Assembly: GCF_008041935.1 (NCBI RefSeq)
Contig: NZ_VKAC01000002.1
Span: 186,001-250,000, forward strand
Direction of reading: 5' to 3'
Source: Quadrisphaera setariae
Lineage (GTDB): Bacteria > Actinomycetota > Actinomycetes > Actinomycetales > Quadrisphaeraceae
DNA: 64,000 nucleotides
Shown here: positions 33,543 to 40,024 of the stretch, in pieces
Layout of the letters: every line of letters starts with the position of its first letter
Position numbering within the stretch: the first letter of the stretch is position 1
Translations under genes and position numbers: made by a program
Notes under the pieces: model-generated
The model's input: only the letters and a program-made list of their open reading frames with translations
Told to the model about the DNA's origin: nothing
Database searches by the model: none

Positions 33543-34421
33543 CTACCCACCGGCCAGGAGCTGCCGGCCGCGGGAGGTGAGGGCGTCGCAGTCGGTGGCG
33601 GGCGGCGCGGCGTCGAGCACCGGACCGTCGAGGGCCGCGTCGACGACGCCGACGGCCAGCGCGTCCCGCACCAGCCCGCCGTGGTCGACCCTCGACGCCG
33701 AGCACACCTGCTGGAGCTCCACGTCGACGGCGCCGCGCAGCGAGGAGGCGTCCGCCGGCGGCACCACCACCTGGTCAGCGGCGGACCACACGCTGGTCCA
33801 GCGGACGCCGTCGCCAGGGGTCTCCGGCAGGGACCGCAGCAGGCTGCTCCCCGGCTCGAGCTGCTGGCACGCGAGCGGGCAGTCCTGCGGGGCGTTCACC
33901 GCCGCGAAGCGCGCCAGGTCCGTGCCCTGGTGGGGTGAGCCCAGCGTGACCACGCGGCGCACGGGCTCGTCGGCGCCGTCACCGGCCAGCCACAGCCGGG
34001 TGACCACCCCGCCGGCGGAGTAGCCGACCACGTCCACCGACGGCGCCCCGCCGGCGAGGGCCGCCTGAGCCGCGGCCTGGACGGCGGTGGCCTGCTCGGC
34101 CAGGTCGCCCGTGCCGTCCCCTGCTGCCGACACCACCCGCACCTGCCGCCCGGCGCGCTCGAGCGCCCCCGCCAGCACCTGCAGCCCGGAGGTGCTGCCG
34201 CCGTACCCCGGCACGAGCAGCACCGTGCCCTGCACCGCCTGGTCGGCCGGCCCGGCGGAGCTGGCCGCGCCGGACCCGCGCGCGTCGTCGTCCTCAGCGC
34301 CACCTGCGGACGGGCCCGCGCCGCGCAGCAGCACCGCCCCCGCCGCCACCACCAGGACGACGACGAGCGCCATCAGAGCGATCGCCAGCCGGCGCCGAGG
34401 TGCCACCCAGCGAGCGTGCAC
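33543..34421 (-). CDS. Exported alpha/beta-hydrolase lipase
   Basis: 292 residues. An N-terminal anchor or signal (LAIALMALVVVLVVAAGAVL) is followed by a Ser/Gly/Ala/Asp linker and a lipase domain: TVLLVPGYGGSTSGLQVLAG with the oxyanion Gly-Tyr-Gly, nucleophile V-V-G-Y-S-A-G-G and V-T-L-G-S-P-H-Q-G-T. The acid is probably in SAADQVVVP and the His in R-V-D-H-G-G-L. It belongs to the triacylglycerol lipase/esterase LipA-like group. It is convergent with the ABC permease gene (4 bp apart). Confidence 0.85.
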   Translation of the reverse strand: MHARWVAPRRRLAIALMALVVVLVVAAGAVLLRGAGPSAGGAEDDDARGSGAASSAGPADQAVQGTVLLVPGYGGSTSGLQVLAGALERAGRQVRVVSAAGDGTGDLAEQATAVQAAAQAALAGGAPSVDVVGYSAGGVVTRLWLAGDGADEPVRRVVTLGSPHQGTDLARFAAVNAPQDCPLACQQLEPGSSLLRSLPETPGDGVRWTSVWSAADQVVVPPADASSLRGAVDVELQQVCSASRVDHGGLVRDALAVGVVDAALDGPVLDAAPPATDCDALTSRGRQLLAGG

Positions 34422-34495
34422 GACCCCGGGATCTTCTGCGACAGTGGATGCACCGCCCGCACCACCCGCCCCGGACCCGGAGGCCCTCCCCAGCC

Positions 34496-35959
34496 ATGCT
34501 CGAAGCCTTCTACGACCTCTTCAACGGCGACGAAGCCGCTGCGACCACGCCCCTGACCGGGCTCCAAGCGCTGCAGCTCGTCGCCGTCGCGGTCGGCGCG
34601 GCGCTCGGGGCACTGGTGCTGGGGATGGTGGTGCACGCCGTCGTCCTGCGGATCGGCCGCAGGTCCGTGGTGGCGCGCACCCTCGCCGCCCGCCTCAAGG
34701 GCCCGTTCCGCTGGATCCTCGTGACGCTGGCCGCCCAGCAGGTGTTCGTCAGCTCCACCGGGAACGACGGCTGGCTCATGGCCACCCGCACCGTGCTGCT
34801 GCTCGCCGTCATCGCCTGCATCGGCTGGCTGCTGGCCAAGGTCGTGCTGGTGGTCGAGGACCTGCTGCTCGAGAAGTTCCGGGTGGACGTCGCCGACAAC
34901 CGCCACGCCCGCCGGATCCGCACCCAGATCATCTTCCTGCGGCGCATCGCGCTGCTGGTGATCGCCCTGCTGACCGTCGGTGCGATGCTCTGGACCTTCC
35001 CCGAGGCCCGCGTGGTCGGCACCGGCATCTTCGCCTCCGCCGGCCTGCTGTCCGTGGTGGCCGGCCTGGCCGCCCAGAGCTCCCTCAGCAACGTCTTCGC
35101 CGGCCTGCAGCTCGCGTTCACCGACGCCCTGCGCGTCGACGACGTCGTGGTGGTCGACGGGCTGTGGGGCCGCATCGAGGAGATCACCCTCACCTACGTG
35201 GTGGTCCACGTCTGGGACGACCGCCGCTACGTGCTGCCCTCCACCTACTTCACCTCCACCCCGTTCGAGCACTGGACCCGCAAGGACTCCCAGATCCTCG
35301 GCGTCGTGATGCTCGAGGTCGACTGGCGCACCGACTTCGACGGCATGCGCGACGAGCTGCACCGCGTGGTCGAGGCCGACGAGCTGTGGGACCGCCGCGT
35401 GGCGGTGCTGCAGGTCACCGACGCCGTCAACACCTTCGTGCAGGTCCGCATCCTCGTGTCCGCGCAGGACGGGCCCACGATCTTCGACCTGCGCTGCCAC
35501 GTGCGCGAGGCGATGGTCCGCTGGCTGGTGGCCTCCAACCCCCAGGGGCTGCCGCGCCTGCGCCTGGCCGGCTCCGACGCCGAGGAGGCCGCGCTCGCAG
35601 AGATGACCCGCGAGCAGCGCGTGCCGGCGAAGAGCGGGCACGACCCGAAGGCCCCCCGCCGGGGCGCGGGAGTGCCGACGCCGGCCACCGTCGTGCTGCC
35701 CCCCGTGGCCGCCGACCGCCAGCCCGACCGCCGCGACGACTCCCTGTTCACCGGCTCGATGGAGGCCGTCGAGAGGTCCCGGGCGTTCGCCGGGCCCAGC
35801 GAGGCCGAGCAGGCCGACCGCGTCGAGCGCCTCCTCCGTGAGGAGCGGGAGCGGGTGGAGGCCGAGGAGCGCGAGGCGGTCCGCCGCCGCTTCCGGGAGG
35901 ACCCCGACCCGGCGCTGACCACGTCCGTGATGCCCGCCGTCCCCGAGCGCCGTCGCTGA
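34496..35959 (+). CDS. MscS-family mechanosensitive channel
   Basis: 487 residues. Four membrane helices, the last two giving the pore: FASAGLLSVVAGLAAQSSL and SNVFAGLQLAFTDALRVDD, typical of MscS TM3. The beta domain VVVVDGLWGRIEEITLTYVV and YFTSTPFEHWTRK follows. After about residue 375 a cytoplasmic Pro/Arg/Glu-rich tail ends in a charged helix (RVERLLREERERVEAEEREA). It should release solutes on hypo-osmotic shock. ATG at 34496. Confidence 0.92.
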   Translation: MLEAFYDLFNGDEAAATTPLTGLQALQLVAVAVGAALGALVLGMVVHAVVLRIGRRSVVARTLAARLKGPFRWILVTLAAQQVFVSSTGNDGWLMATRTVLLLAVIACIGWLLAKVVLVVEDLLLEKFRVDVADNRHARRIRTQIIFLRRIALLVIALLTVGAMLWTFPEARVVGTGIFASAGLLSVVAGLAAQSSLSNVFAGLQLAFTDALRVDDVVVVDGLWGRIEEITLTYVVVHVWDDRRYVLPSTYFTSTPFEHWTRKDSQILGVVMLEVDWRTDFDGMRDELHRVVEADELWDRRVAVLQVTDAVNTFVQVRILVSAQDGPTIFDLRCHVREAMVRWLVASNPQGLPRLRLAGSDAEEAALAEMTREQRVPAKSGHDPKAPRRGAGVPTPATVVLPPVAADRQPDRRDDSLFTGSMEAVERSRAFAGPSEAEQADRVERLLREERERVEAEEREAVRRRFREDPDPALTTSVMPAVPERRR

Positions 35960-35997
35960 CCCACCTTCCCTCTGCCCCGGCCGTCTGCGTGACGCCG

Positions 35998-36056
35998 GAC
36001 GTGCAGAAGTCCTGACCGGAGCCCTCTGCGGCGCTACCGGGAGACTTCTGCACGTC
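35998..36056. repeat. Palindromic element, copy 1
   Basis: Arms gacgtgcagaagtc (35998-36011) and gacttctgcacgtc (36043-36056), perfect 14-bp stem with a 31-nt loop. The left arm and its upstream flank (gcgtgacgccggacgtgcag) are identical to the copy at 38576-38595. It lies between the MscS gene and the first lipoprotein gene. Confidence 0.75.
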
Positions 36057-36095
36057 GGTGATCACGGGTCGGACGACGACGGCGCGCCGCCGCTC

Positions 36096-36126
36096 TGCAA
36101 CGCACGGCGGTGCGGCAGCGTCTGAC
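36096..36126 (+). promoter_or_regulatory. ECF-sigma-type promoter of lipoprotein 1
   Basis: -35 TGCAACG (36096-36102), 16-nt spacer, -10 CGTCTGAC (36119-36126), then GTG at 36129. The same elements, spacer and distance occur before lipoprotein 2. CGTC -10 cores with AAC -35 motifs are typical of ECF sigma factors. Confidence 0.6.
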
Positions 36127-36128
36127 CG

Positions 36129-37268
36129 GTGATCGTCGCGACGAGCGACGGCGCGGTTGCGGAGGGCGGGGTCTGCGTGCGGCGTTCCAGGGCGGGATCG
36201 GTCGGTCTGACAGCAGGGGCGGCGCTCGCGGTGGGACTGGCGCTGGCTGGGTGCGGGGGCACCCCGCTGGCGCAGCCGGCGCCGGACGCCAGCAGCGCGT
36301 CGCCGTCGTCGTCCGCCTACACCGACCCCGGCCAGCTCTGGCCCGACGCGGCGCGCACGGTCGTCATCACGCCGCAGGGCCAGCGCCCGCCGATGCCTCC
36401 GCCCGACGAGGCCCAGCTGCAGGACCTCACCACCTACGCCGAGCAGGAGGGCGTGCCGGTCGAGGCGGTGGTCCGGGAGCAGGAGGACGTGACCGCCTTC
36501 CACGACTGGGTCGCCGCGACGGTCACGCCGATCCTCGGTGACCGGTTCTCCGAGGCGCGCCCGGAGATGGAGGGCGGGCCGGCGTGGATCGGGTTCACCG
36601 GCGACGTGCCGCCCGAGCTCGTCGCGGCTGCGGAGGCCTTCTACCTGCCGATGGAGCTGCGGGGCGGGGCGCTGCTCACCGCGACGGAGGCAGACCGCGT
36701 GCGGTCGGTCGGCACCGACGCCTTCGCCGCGGCAGCGCCGAGGGGCTTCGGCTGGAGCGGGAGCCTCGACACCCCCACGGCGACGTTCACCTACGGCGGC
36801 ATCCCTGCCGAGCAGTGGCAGGGCGGTGACGAGGTGAGGGCGGCCGTGGTCGCCGCTGCGGCGAAGGCGCTGGGCCGCGACGCGCCGTTCCGCGTCGAGG
36901 TCGAGCTGGACGACCGTGACCCCAAGACCACCGAGCCGGCCTTCTGGTACCTCCCCGCAGGCTGGACCGCCGACCCGAGCGCCACGAGCCTGGAGGTCGT
37001 CGTCGACGCCCCGGAGTGCGCGAGCGGGGTCAACCCGGGGGAGCGCATGGCCCCGCCGCAGGTGGAGGTCACGGACACGCAGGTCCGGATCGCGGTGTCC
37101 ACCTACATCCTGAAGGGACCGCAGACCTGCCCCGGACACGGCACGGCCCCGCTGGTGGTCGACCTCGGCCAGCCCCTGGGCGACCGGACGCTCGTGGACG
37201 TCAACGGCTCCCTCCGCGGAGACGGCGCAGGACCCGGCGGTGGGCTCCTGACGCCGCCCGCCGGATGA
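36129..37268 (+). CDS. Lipoprotein, paralogue 1
   Basis: 379 residues. A short N-tail (V-I-V-A-T-S-D-G) precedes R-R-S-R-A-G-S-V and a hydrophobic segment ending in lipobox L-A-L-A-G-C. After a Ser/Pro linker comes a domain shared with the next gene: WPDAARTVVITPQGQRPPM, W-I-G-F-T-G-D-V-P-P-E-L-V, PMELRGGALLTATEADRVR, DDRDPKTTEPAFWYLPAGW and VEVTDTQVRIAVSTYILKG. No known family is recognised. The GTG is 10 nt from the start of the -10 box, so the message is probably leaderless and ECF-controlled. Confidence 0.8.
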   Translation: MIVATSDGAVAEGGVCVRRSRAGSVGLTAGAALAVGLALAGCGGTPLAQPAPDASSASPSSSAYTDPGQLWPDAARTVVITPQGQRPPMPPPDEAQLQDLTTYAEQEGVPVEAVVREQEDVTAFHDWVAATVTPILGDRFSEARPEMEGGPAWIGFTGDVPPELVAAAEAFYLPMELRGGALLTATEADRVRSVGTDAFAAAAPRGFGWSGSLDTPTATFTYGGIPAEQWQGGDEVRAAVVAAAAKALGRDAPFRVEVELDDRDPKTTEPAFWYLPAGWTADPSATSLEVVVDAPECASGVNPGERMAPPQVEVTDTQVRIAVSTYILKGPQTCPGHGTAPLVVDLGQPLGDRTLVDVNGSLRGDGAGPGGGLLTPPAG

Positions 37269-37293
37269 GGACGACGACGACGCGGCGCCGCCC

Positions 37294-37324
37294 TGCAACG
37301 CTCGCGCCTGCGGGAGCGTCTGAC
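37294..37324 (+). promoter_or_regulatory. ECF-sigma-type promoter of lipoprotein 2
   Basis: -35 TGCAACG (37294-37300), 16-nt spacer (37301-37316), -10 CGTCTGAC (37317-37324), GTG at 37327. Element sequences and all distances equal those before lipoprotein 1. Confidence 0.6.
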
Positions 37325-37326
37325 TG

Positions 37327-38478
37327 GTGATCACTGCGCCGGTCGGTGGTGAGGCGGAGGACGGGGTGGACGTGGGACGTTCCAGGGCACGAGCGGTCGC
37401 GCTGGCAGCTGGGGCAGCGGGAGCGGTGGTGGTGCTCGCCGGGTGCGGGAGCGCGGCGCATCCGCTACCGCCCGGCGGCGCGTCGTCGTCCTCCTCCTCA
37501 CCCACCCCGCGCGCCACCTTCGCCTGGCCCGACCCTGCGCTGACGGTCGTCACGACGCCCCGCGGCGTCCGCCCGCCCCTGGACCTCACGTGGGCGACCC
37601 CGGGGTCGCTGCAGGACCAGATCGCACAGGAGGAAGGCATCTCGCTGGAGGAGGCCGCGCGGATCGTCCAGGACCAGGAGCTGGTGGGGGTCTTCACCTA
37701 CGACGTCCAGGAGCGGTTCAGGGACGCTCTCTCCACGTCACACGCGGGGGACGAGTCGTCGCAGGGCCGGCCGTGGGTCGCCTTCACCGGAACCGTGCCG
37801 CCGGAGGTCGTCACCATGGCGGAGCAGCTGCCGTTCCCCATCGAGCTGCGCGGCGGAGCGCTCGTGTCCAGCCACCGCAACGGCGTCATCATCGACGCGG
37901 CGACGACGGCGTTCGCCGCTGACCTCGGGGTGGCCGAGCAGGGGCTGGTGCTGGGCGGCCACTTCGACTCGACCACCGGCGTGGTCACCATCGACTACTC
38001 CACCGACCCGCTCACGCGGCGCCCCGATGCGGGCACGGAGGACGCGGTCATCGCCGCCGCGCAAGGCGCGCTCGGGTGGGACGCGCCGCTGTCGGTCGAC
38101 GTCCAGGCCGACGACCGGGACCCGACGACGACGAACGCCGCGACGTGGTTCCTGCCGGAAGGCTTCGTGCCCGACCCGGCGGCGACCCGCGTGGAGGTGC
38201 TGGTCGTCGAGCAGGGATGCACCGGCGGACGGGGGGCCGAGGGCAACACCGCCCCTCCGGAGGTCGAGGTCACCGGCACGCAGGTGCGCATCGCGGTGTC
38301 GACCTACATCCGCAAGGGGGCGCAGGGCTGTCCGAACCACCCGGCGGCTCCGCTCGTGGTGGATCTTGGTCAGCAGCTGGGGAACCGCGAGCTGGTGGAC
38401 GTCCACGGCCGCATCGACGACGGCGCCGGTGAGGGGATGCACCTGGGAGGCCCCGTGCAGGTGCCCGCCGCCGGCTGA
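37327..38478 (+). CDS. Lipoprotein, paralogue 2
   Basis: 383 residues, a tandem paralogue of the preceding protein. N-tail, G-R-S-R-A-R-A-V and lipobox V-V-L-A-G-C. Matching blocks: WPDPALTVVTTPRGVRPPLD, WVAFTGTVPPEVV, PIELRGGALVSSHRNG, DDRDPTTTNAATWFLPEGF, VEVTGTQVRIAVSTYIRKGA and APLVVDLGQQLGNRELVDVH. Two Cys near the end (Q-G-C-T-G-G and Q-G-C-P-N-H) are conserved in both and may form a disulfide. The family is not recognised. Confidence 0.8.
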   Translation: MITAPVGGEAEDGVDVGRSRARAVALAAGAAGAVVVLAGCGSAAHPLPPGGASSSSSSPTPRATFAWPDPALTVVTTPRGVRPPLDLTWATPGSLQDQIAQEEGISLEEAARIVQDQELVGVFTYDVQERFRDALSTSHAGDESSQGRPWVAFTGTVPPEVVTMAEQLPFPIELRGGALVSSHRNGVIIDAATTAFAADLGVAEQGLVLGGHFDSTTGVVTIDYSTDPLTRRPDAGTEDAVIAAAQGALGWDAPLSVDVQADDRDPTTTNAATWFLPEGFVPDPAATRVEVLVVEQGCTGGRGAEGNTAPPEVEVTGTQVRIAVSTYIRKGAQGCPNHPAAPLVVDLGQQLGNRELVDVHGRIDDGAGEGMHLGGPVQVPAAG

Positions 38479-38577
38479 CCCGGCACGGCGGCGTCCCCTC
38501 GGGCATGCAGGAGTACCGCCGGTGGGGTGGGGAGTCGCTCCCGAGCGACTTCTGCCCGCTGGGCGGGACGAGGGCGC

Positions 38578-38654
38578 GTGACGCCGGACGTGCAGAACCC
38601 GGCCGGAGCGCCCCGTCAGGCCCCCACGAGGAACTTCTGCACGTCCGGCGTCAC
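38578..38654. repeat. Palindromic element, copy 2
   Basis: Arms gtgacgccggacgtgcagaa (38578-38597) and ttctgcacgtccggcgtcac (38635-38654), perfect 20-bp stem with a 37-nt loop. Same family as the element at 35998-36056. It lies between convergent genes (lipoprotein 2 and the Fic gene), where it may act as a bidirectional terminator. Confidence 0.8.
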
Positions 38655-38664
38655 CGCCAGCCGG

Positions 38665-39834
38665 TCACCGGGTCGAGCGCCGCCCGGCCCGGGTCGCGAA
38701 CGCGTCCAGCGCCGCCAGCACCTCGTCGGCCTGCCACAGCCGGCCGCGATCGCGCCCCGTCGTCTCGCGCACCACGCCCGCCTCCACCAGCGGCGCCAGC
38801 GGCCGGGCAGCGTTGGCGGCCGAGACCCCCAGCTCGCGGGCGATGGTCGCGCTGTCGACCACCGGCTGCCGCAGCAACAGGTCGGCCAGGCGCCACGCGG
38901 CGGAGTCTCGGCGAGCCACCACCACGTCGTCCCACCGCGCCCGCACCGTCCGCAGTTCCGCGGCCAGCTGCCGCCCGTTGACCACCGCGGCCAGCGCGCT
39001 CCGGGACATGACCTCGACGATCGGGTCCACCTCACCGCCGCGGTACGCGGTGAGCGCGTCGAAGTACCCGCCGACGTCGGTGAGCAGCCCGGCCGACACA
39101 GGCACCGTCACTCGCCGCGCGAGCCCCCGCCCCCGCAGCAGCGCGTGCACCAGCGCCCGCCCGGTGCGGCCGTTGCCGTCCGCGAACGGGTGGATGGTCT
39201 CGAACTGCGCGTGCGCCAGCGCCGCGTGCACGAGCACCTGCACGTCACCGCGGCTGCTGAACGCGACGAGGTCGTCGATGAGGGCGGGCACATCCTCGTG
39301 GTGGGGCGGCACGAACTCCGCCCCGTGCGGCCCGTACGTGTCCCCGCCGATCCACACCTGCTCGCTGCGCCACCGCCCCGCGATCGACGGCGCGCTCGCC
39401 TCCAGCAGCGCCCGCTGCATCGCCAGCAGCCCCTCGGCGGTGAGCTCGTCGGCCAGGGCGAGCGCCGCCTGCATCGACCGCACGTTGCCGAGCACGAGCT
39501 CAGCGTTCCGGGTGGCGCTTCTCCCGAGCTCAGCCACCGCGATCGCCCGCGCCCCCGACGTCAGCCCCTCGATCTGCGACGACGACGCAGACTCGCTGCG
39601 CAGCAGCAAGAACGGCAGCGGCCCAGGGCCGCCGCCGTCGGACTCTGCGGGCGCGCTCGCCTGCTCCGCATCGAAGCGCGCCACCTCGGCGGCCGCCTCT
39701 TCCGCCAGTGCCGCTGCCACCGATGAGACCGCAGGCGTGGCTCCCGCGATGAACGGCACCACCGCCGCTGCGTACGGCCCCCGGTGGCGCTCGCGGATCG
39801 AGCGCGGCACGAGGTCGGGCGGGAGGGTCGGCAT
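38665..39834 (-). CDS. Fic-domain protein with N-terminal inhibitory motif
   Basis: 389 residues. The Fic core motif [12 protein letters not shown] (H-P-F-x-D-x-N-G-R) follows [11 protein letters not shown]; upstream lies S-S-S-Q-I-E-G, which matches the (S/T)-x-x-x-E-(G/N) inhibitory helix of class II Fic proteins. The C-terminal part is a winged helix ([20 protein letters not shown]). It would AMPylate or otherwise modify a protein and be auto-inhibited. The ATG at 39834 has GGGAGGT 6-7 nt upstream, which decides the start over a further ATG at 39900. No adjacent antitoxin gene is needed. Confidence 0.9.
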
Positions 39835-40024
39835 CCACGGCACCTCCCGGCTGCCGAGCGCCGGCCAAGCGCCGGTGTTCGCGGCTCGACCTGAAGGCAC
39901 ACTCGGACGTTACCTTCACTTCTGCCGCTGAGTGATGGTGACGACATCGCCTGTTCTCACTTCTCCCTGGCGGCGTCACGCCAACCGCTGGGCCGGACTG
40001 GCGAGGGCGTGCCAGCCCTCCGCG

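Follow-up and report, generated by a model that had tools for sequence, protein, structure and literature searches.

Two tandem lipoprotein genes of Quadrisphaera each carry, upstream, a bipartite ECF-type promoter element with strongly conserved boxes, and in the same genomes this element precedes exactly one clade of SigE-family sigma factor genes. The N-terminal half of both lipoproteins is homologous to a domain that, in relatives, is found ahead of the catalytic domain of secreted S1 proteases. We suggest, with confidence and doubt about evenly balanced, that the two proteins are ECF-driven, lipid-anchored orphan pro-domains, expressed from promoters of the type that precedes the sigma gene C4:310436-310969 and acting in trans on a chymotrypsin-fold protease. 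Comparative evidence links a SigE-family ECF clade, so far uncharacterised, with a predicted promoter and a predicted target of two genes, and the results also point to orphan protease pro-domains on display as lipoproteins. A limited literature search found no papers on Quadrisphaera sigma factors or TIGR02983, and no description of stand-alone pro-peptides or of orphan protease pro-domains displayed by lipoproteins.

The locus and its promoter element

The pair lies in a Quadrisphaera genome of 4.9 Mb, within the 64,000-nucleotide stretch of DNA that was analyzed (the window); same-genus relatives include Q. granulorum DSM 44889. The genes and their parts are listed in Table 1. The gene on one side, at 34400-35959, encodes an MscS-like channel and that on the other, at 38665-39900 on the minus strand, a Fic-family protein, both named by reading the sequence. 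Beside the locus in relatives, the MscS-like gene and a membrane-protein gene beyond Fic were each found in 5/5, and the Fic gene in 4/5, with genes outside the window called from ORFs and codon composition alone. The pair is also bracketed by an inverted repeat, GTGACGCCGGACGTGCAGAAGT...ACTTCTGCACGTC(CGGCGTCAC), at 35988-36066 and 38577-38654; its core has three matches in the window against 0.01 expected, and it is possibly a terminator or a member of an intergenic repeat family.

Table 1. Predicted features of the lipoprotein locus, in window coordinates
Feature	Start	End	Strand	Basis or remark
Conserved block GACGACGACGGCGCGCCGCCGC before promoter A	36071	36095	+	11 aligned upstream regions; duplicated block
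Counterpart of block GACGACGACGGCGCGCCGCCGC before promoter B	37269	37293		Related sequence
Promoter A: -35 TGCAACG (36096-36102), 16-nt spacer, -10 CGTCTGAC (36119-36126)	36096	36126	+	11/11 copies, best of 222 positions
Leader A, predicted untranslated	36129	36176	+	Frame test, 11 copies
Lipoprotein A, 363 aa, start GTG 36177, lipobox LAGC (Cys 26, alignment numbering of sequence 1)	36177	37268	+	
domN of lipoprotein A, serine-protease pro-region-like	36318	36899	+	HMM matches, hhalign, well-predicted part of model
domC of lipoprotein A, two-Cys, ends PLGDR-LVD, holds VRIAVSTYI block	36915	37235	+	18-sequence alignment
Promoter B: TGCAACG, 16-nt spacer, CGTCTGAC	37294	37324	+	
Leader B, predicted untranslated	37327	37371	+	Frame test, 11 copies
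Lipoprotein B, 368 aa, start GTG 37372, lipobox LAGC	37372	38478	+	
domN of lipoprotein B	37513	38109	+	
domC of lipoprotein B	38116	38430	+	

The original prediction read two copies of TGCAACG-N16-CGTCTGAC with a GTG 10 nt from the start of CGTCTGAC, and both the copies and their spacing are as claimed; the related flanks were likewise recovered, as blocks of 101 nt (74%) and 76 nt (78%). The further claim that the promoter is unchanged in both copies holds for the two boxes and fails for the 16-nt spacer, which differs. We compared 11 full-length lipoprotein copies from six Quadrisphaera genomes. Among these the -35 box is TGCAACG in ten and AGCAACG in one, the -10 sequence CGTCT is invariant, and the distance from AAC to CGTCT is a constant 17 nt, all 11 copies thus showing the -35 AAC core, 16-17-nt spacing and -10 CGTC of an ECF (group 4) SigE-family promoter. 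Averaged over pairs of copies, identity stands at 0.97 and 1.00 for the boxes, falls to 0.68 for the spacer and 0.55 for the leader, and is 0.43 farther upstream; the paired boxes rank first for conservation among the upstream positions compared. The assignment to the ECF type is further borne out by the presence of the same bipartite element before one SigE-family ECF clade in the same six genomes, and by its form, which is that of the S1-mapped sigma-E promoter of sco5358 in Streptomyces coelicolor, TGCAAC-N17-CGTCTG, or TGCAACCCTGTCCCGAGTTCCGC-CGTCTG (PMC6767563).

Was the promoter duplicated together with its gene, as had been proposed? The tandem pair is present in five of the six genomes; in G003, the sixth, a single intact copy is accompanied, about 80 kb away, by a degenerate one that still carries TGCAACG-N17-CGTC. 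Gene conversion may have added to the likeness. In Q. granulorum the upstream regions of the two copies (G002a and G002b) are closest to each other, at 88%, and in the alignment G005b looks like a mosaic of the A and B types, with a B-like first half and an A-like end; together these suggest gene conversion between copies. Such conversion partly explains the unchanged promoters, yet it does not account for boxes that are better conserved than the spacer in other genomes. Conservation does reach upstream (GACGACGACGGCGCG) and into the spacer, which, like the Q. granulorum and G005b patterns, would fit a different regulatory element that is no sigma site at all and is alike through recent duplication and gene conversion. 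We nevertheless consider this explanation improbable, given the drop in identity from boxes to spacer and leader, a box spacing that is kept in all copies, and the recurrence of the element before an unrelated class of genes, those for sigma factors.

The exact motif occurs twice in the whole 4.9-Mb genome, against none for a reversed control in the pattern search; genome-wide, its forward and reverse matches were no more numerous than those of the reversed-pattern control. By the refutation test set with the original prediction, the exact motif is thus, taken literally, no commoner than chance genome-wide, and the idea that it marks a large regulon was rejected, with only the two genome sites and no excess over the control at one mismatch. 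Yet the relaxed pattern GCAACS-N15/16-CGTCT has 12 sites in the window's genome, nine of them inside predicted ORFs. Only three are non-coding, namely the promoters of the two lipoprotein genes and the site of the sigma gene, the last additionally overlapped by an implausible ORF on the opposite strand. Such a distribution suggests a regulon of very few genes more than it does chance.

One part of the original prediction, that the messages are leaderless, had to be given up. The GTG that follows the -10 box is in frame in 6 of the 11 copies, out of frame in four (G002a, G002b, G004b and G001b) and absent from one (G005a). The sole start common to all 11 is GTG 36177/37372, usually with a purine-rich, GGAGG-like stretch some 10-15 nt before it, and therefore leaders of about 45-50 nt are predicted. 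Near the expected +1 of leader A is GGTGATC, and a similar GTGATCACC follows the promoter of the sigma gene L056, where GTGATC is again found near +1 (GGTGTGATCACC); this is probably initially transcribed sequence and no start codon. In the window both upstream GTGs are in frame and placed where an ECF start is expected, but transcripts beginning there are hardly credible in view of the frame counts and of the GTGATCACC-like sequence after the L056 promoter, and because such a start would add 15-16 residues ahead of a normal signal peptide. Two other SigE-family sigma genes, L048 and that of L072, could start near their presumed promoters, and so leaderless starts are not impossible in the organism, though not supported for the lipoproteins.

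A candidate sigma factor

The sigma set comprised 30 SigE-family (TIGR02983) genes from the six Quadrisphaera genomes. NGCAACC-N15/16-CGTCT lies upstream of ten of these, which make up exactly one clade with an orthologue in every one of the six genomes, and upstream of none of the other 20. Under random assortment the chance of this pattern is 3e-8, or 1e-3 when orthologues are hand-collapsed into 14 groups, and since the pattern was first taken from the lipoproteins, the clade test is not fully blind. With the ten element-bearing genes forming a single clade, the attribution of the lipoprotein promoters to one alternative sigma factor is probably right.

The best candidate for the cognate factor, as judged from sequence, is the orthologue in the window's genome, C4:310436-310969 (minus strand), with its putative promoter at C4:311015-311042; the corresponding SigE-family gene of Q. 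granulorum is G002:C41:4311-4844. Its upstream sequence reads GGCAAC-N17-CGTCT and has the 17-nt spacing of the lipoproteins, whereas promoters of the clade mostly have a 16-nt spacing. The flanks of the -35 box also differ at the first and seventh bases, TGCAACG in the lipoproteins versus GGCAACC in the sigma clade. Against the TIGR02983 model the candidate scores 140 bits, just under the cut-off of 141.55, and some relatives in the clade score above it. In the family searched, its close relatives do not extend beyond the genus, being present in 6/6 Quadrisphaera genomes and 0/7 other genomes of the family, and the lipoproteins are distributed likewise (6/6 and 0/7).

Both the promoter form, NGCAAC-N17-CGTCT, and the presence of lipoproteins among the targets recall the sigma-E regulon of S. 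coelicolor, which takes in lipoproteins such as sco4471 that contribute to lysozyme resistance (PMC6767563). In contrast, the predicted Quadrisphaera targets belong to another lipoprotein family, and the candidate sigma gene is followed by a gene for a predicted single-pass membrane protein.

A second SigE-family group (L042-L045) has a conserved TGCAACC-N17-CGTA upstream together with a conserved downstream block, TGACGCTGCTGCA. The TGCAAC sequences found about 1.5 kb downstream of the sigma genes L010 and L012 were rejected as promoters, their contexts being unclear or coding.

It is unlikely, though well worth weighing, that the lipoprotein promoters are of ECF type but are used by another SigE-family sigma factor, for example that of the C4:7384-7857 group, or by several that overlap. 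The element before L042-L045 would fit such a reading, as would the finding that most tested sigma-E targets in S. coelicolor are only partly sigma-E dependent, from which the authors infer overlap between ECF factors (PMC6767563). However, the -10 sequence is CGTCT in 11/11 lipoprotein promoters and in 10/10 of the candidate clade, as against CGTA in L042-L045, and among the matches examined the L042-L045 group is found in only 4/6 genomes, compared with 6/6 for the candidate clade.

Architecture and relatives of the lipoproteins

The lipobox, the shared blocks and the two conserved cysteines (C281 and C318 of protein 1) had been correctly described, as had the divergence of the proteins, A and B being 44% identical in the alignment. 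By sequence pattern all 11 sequences have the LAGC-like box with an invariant Cys that marks bacterial lipoproteins. Each is built of two modules, domN (residues ~48-241) and domC (residues ~247-353). No match to the lipoproteins was found in Pfam up to E 10 or in NCBIfam, and a PDB sequence search with queries A1 and A2 gave nothing convincing. That no family is recognised is accordingly correct for Pfam and NCBIfam and incorrect for the N-terminal half, which has recognisable relatives.

An HMM built solely from the lipoproteins found secreted S1 proteases (L153, 1.2e-12; L154, 4.9e-11; L140, 2.9e-10; L142, 2.4e-8). DomN occurs in secreted S1 proteases that bear the motifs TAxHC and GDSGG (L153, L154, L142, L156 and L161; L140 is truncated), and it also stands alone in proteins that are lipoprotein-like or membrane-anchored (L155, L135 and L147). 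In one genome, G439, the stand-alone domN lipoprotein L155 and the N-terminal region of the secreted S1 protease L161 share 77% identity over 197 aa. When compared by hhalign with the pro-regions of streptogrisin and alpha-lytic protease, the extended domN set aligned over 120 columns with a probability of 85% and its protease-attached subset with one of 90%, the link going via protease-attached domN and resting partly on alignments that include it; the lipoprotein profile by itself gave a non-significant 6% against streptogrisin pro-regions. All controls (sigma, domC, reversed and column-shuffled) stayed at or below 0.3%. The AlphaFold model of the lipoprotein has a mean pLDDT of 77.7 and a pTM of 0.60, with domN confidently predicted, and its order of helices and strands fits the one generally known for pro-regions.

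DomN thus resembles the alpha-lytic/streptogrisin pro-region (PF02983) both in profile-level homology, through the hhalign link, and in its place before the S1 protease domain in relatives. It differs in that the Quadrisphaera lipoproteins have no protease domain, are predicted to be lipid-anchored and are fused to domC; PF02983 (Pro_Al_protease) has no match in the lipoproteins or elsewhere in the window's genome.

DomC is undescribed. Across 18 sequences, drawn from several families of lipoproteins and membrane proteins, its two cysteines are invariant and a PLGDR-like motif is present, and no Pfam match was found in the members scanned. It is a widespread small two-Cys domain of actinobacterial lipoproteins (L031, L129-L146). 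In two cases it adjoins SigE-family sigma genes, G005:C55 (divergent) and G072.

Proposed function and alternatives

Pro-regions of the alpha-lytic type fold their own protease and also inhibit it tightly, even when supplied in trans. We suggest that the genus-specific lipoprotein pair, each gene with its own SigE-family ECF promoter (TGCAAC, 17 nt, CGTCT), would be driven at both promoters by the C4:310436-310969 sigma factor, which would relay an envelope signal. The mature proteins would be held at the membrane by a lipid anchor and a Ser-rich linker, displaying the pro-region-like domain and the small two-Cys domain, and domN, while tethered to the cell, would most likely work in the manner of these pro-regions, binding a chymotrypsin-fold protease in trans as an inhibitor or as a folding helper. 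A cognate protease is not evident in the window's genome, where the trypsin-family matches examined were HtrA-like or small lipoproteins. As no streptogrisin-type partner was found there, the target may be external; alternatively, domN may have been turned to use as a sensor.

The second of these options deserves consideration in its own right. It is possible, if doubtful, that the promoter is read correctly and that the proteins serve in envelope sensing or have a structural role as lipoproteins, domN having lost protease binding and been repurposed as an extracytoplasmic component in sigma-linked signalling. Besides the want of an evident cognate protease, what points this way is a Q. granulorum protein (G002:C19) that is predicted to cross the membrane once with domN on the outside and whose gene immediately follows one for a SigE-family sigma factor, as well as the two cases of domC beside such genes. 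However, the pair in the window is not adjacent to a sigma gene, most of the domC and domN relatives examined lack a sigma gene in the flanks fetched, and the stand-alone domN lipoprotein of G439, with its matching protease, favours pairing in trans. If the proteins do act in trans, as we prefer, they might even form an ECF-controlled surface shield, in which anchored pro-domains inhibit attacking chymotrypsin- or streptogrisin-type proteases that neighbouring bacteria secrete and the domN membrane protein beside the SigE-family sigma gene serves as the protease-sensing input, although we regard this extension as speculative and rather improbable.

A cluster in Q. granulorum (L072, 3708-5931, minus strand) combines a gene for a SigE-family sigma factor with genes for a predicted membrane protein carrying domN on the outside and for a lipoprotein, possibly an ECF system with a protease-pro-region-like sensor.
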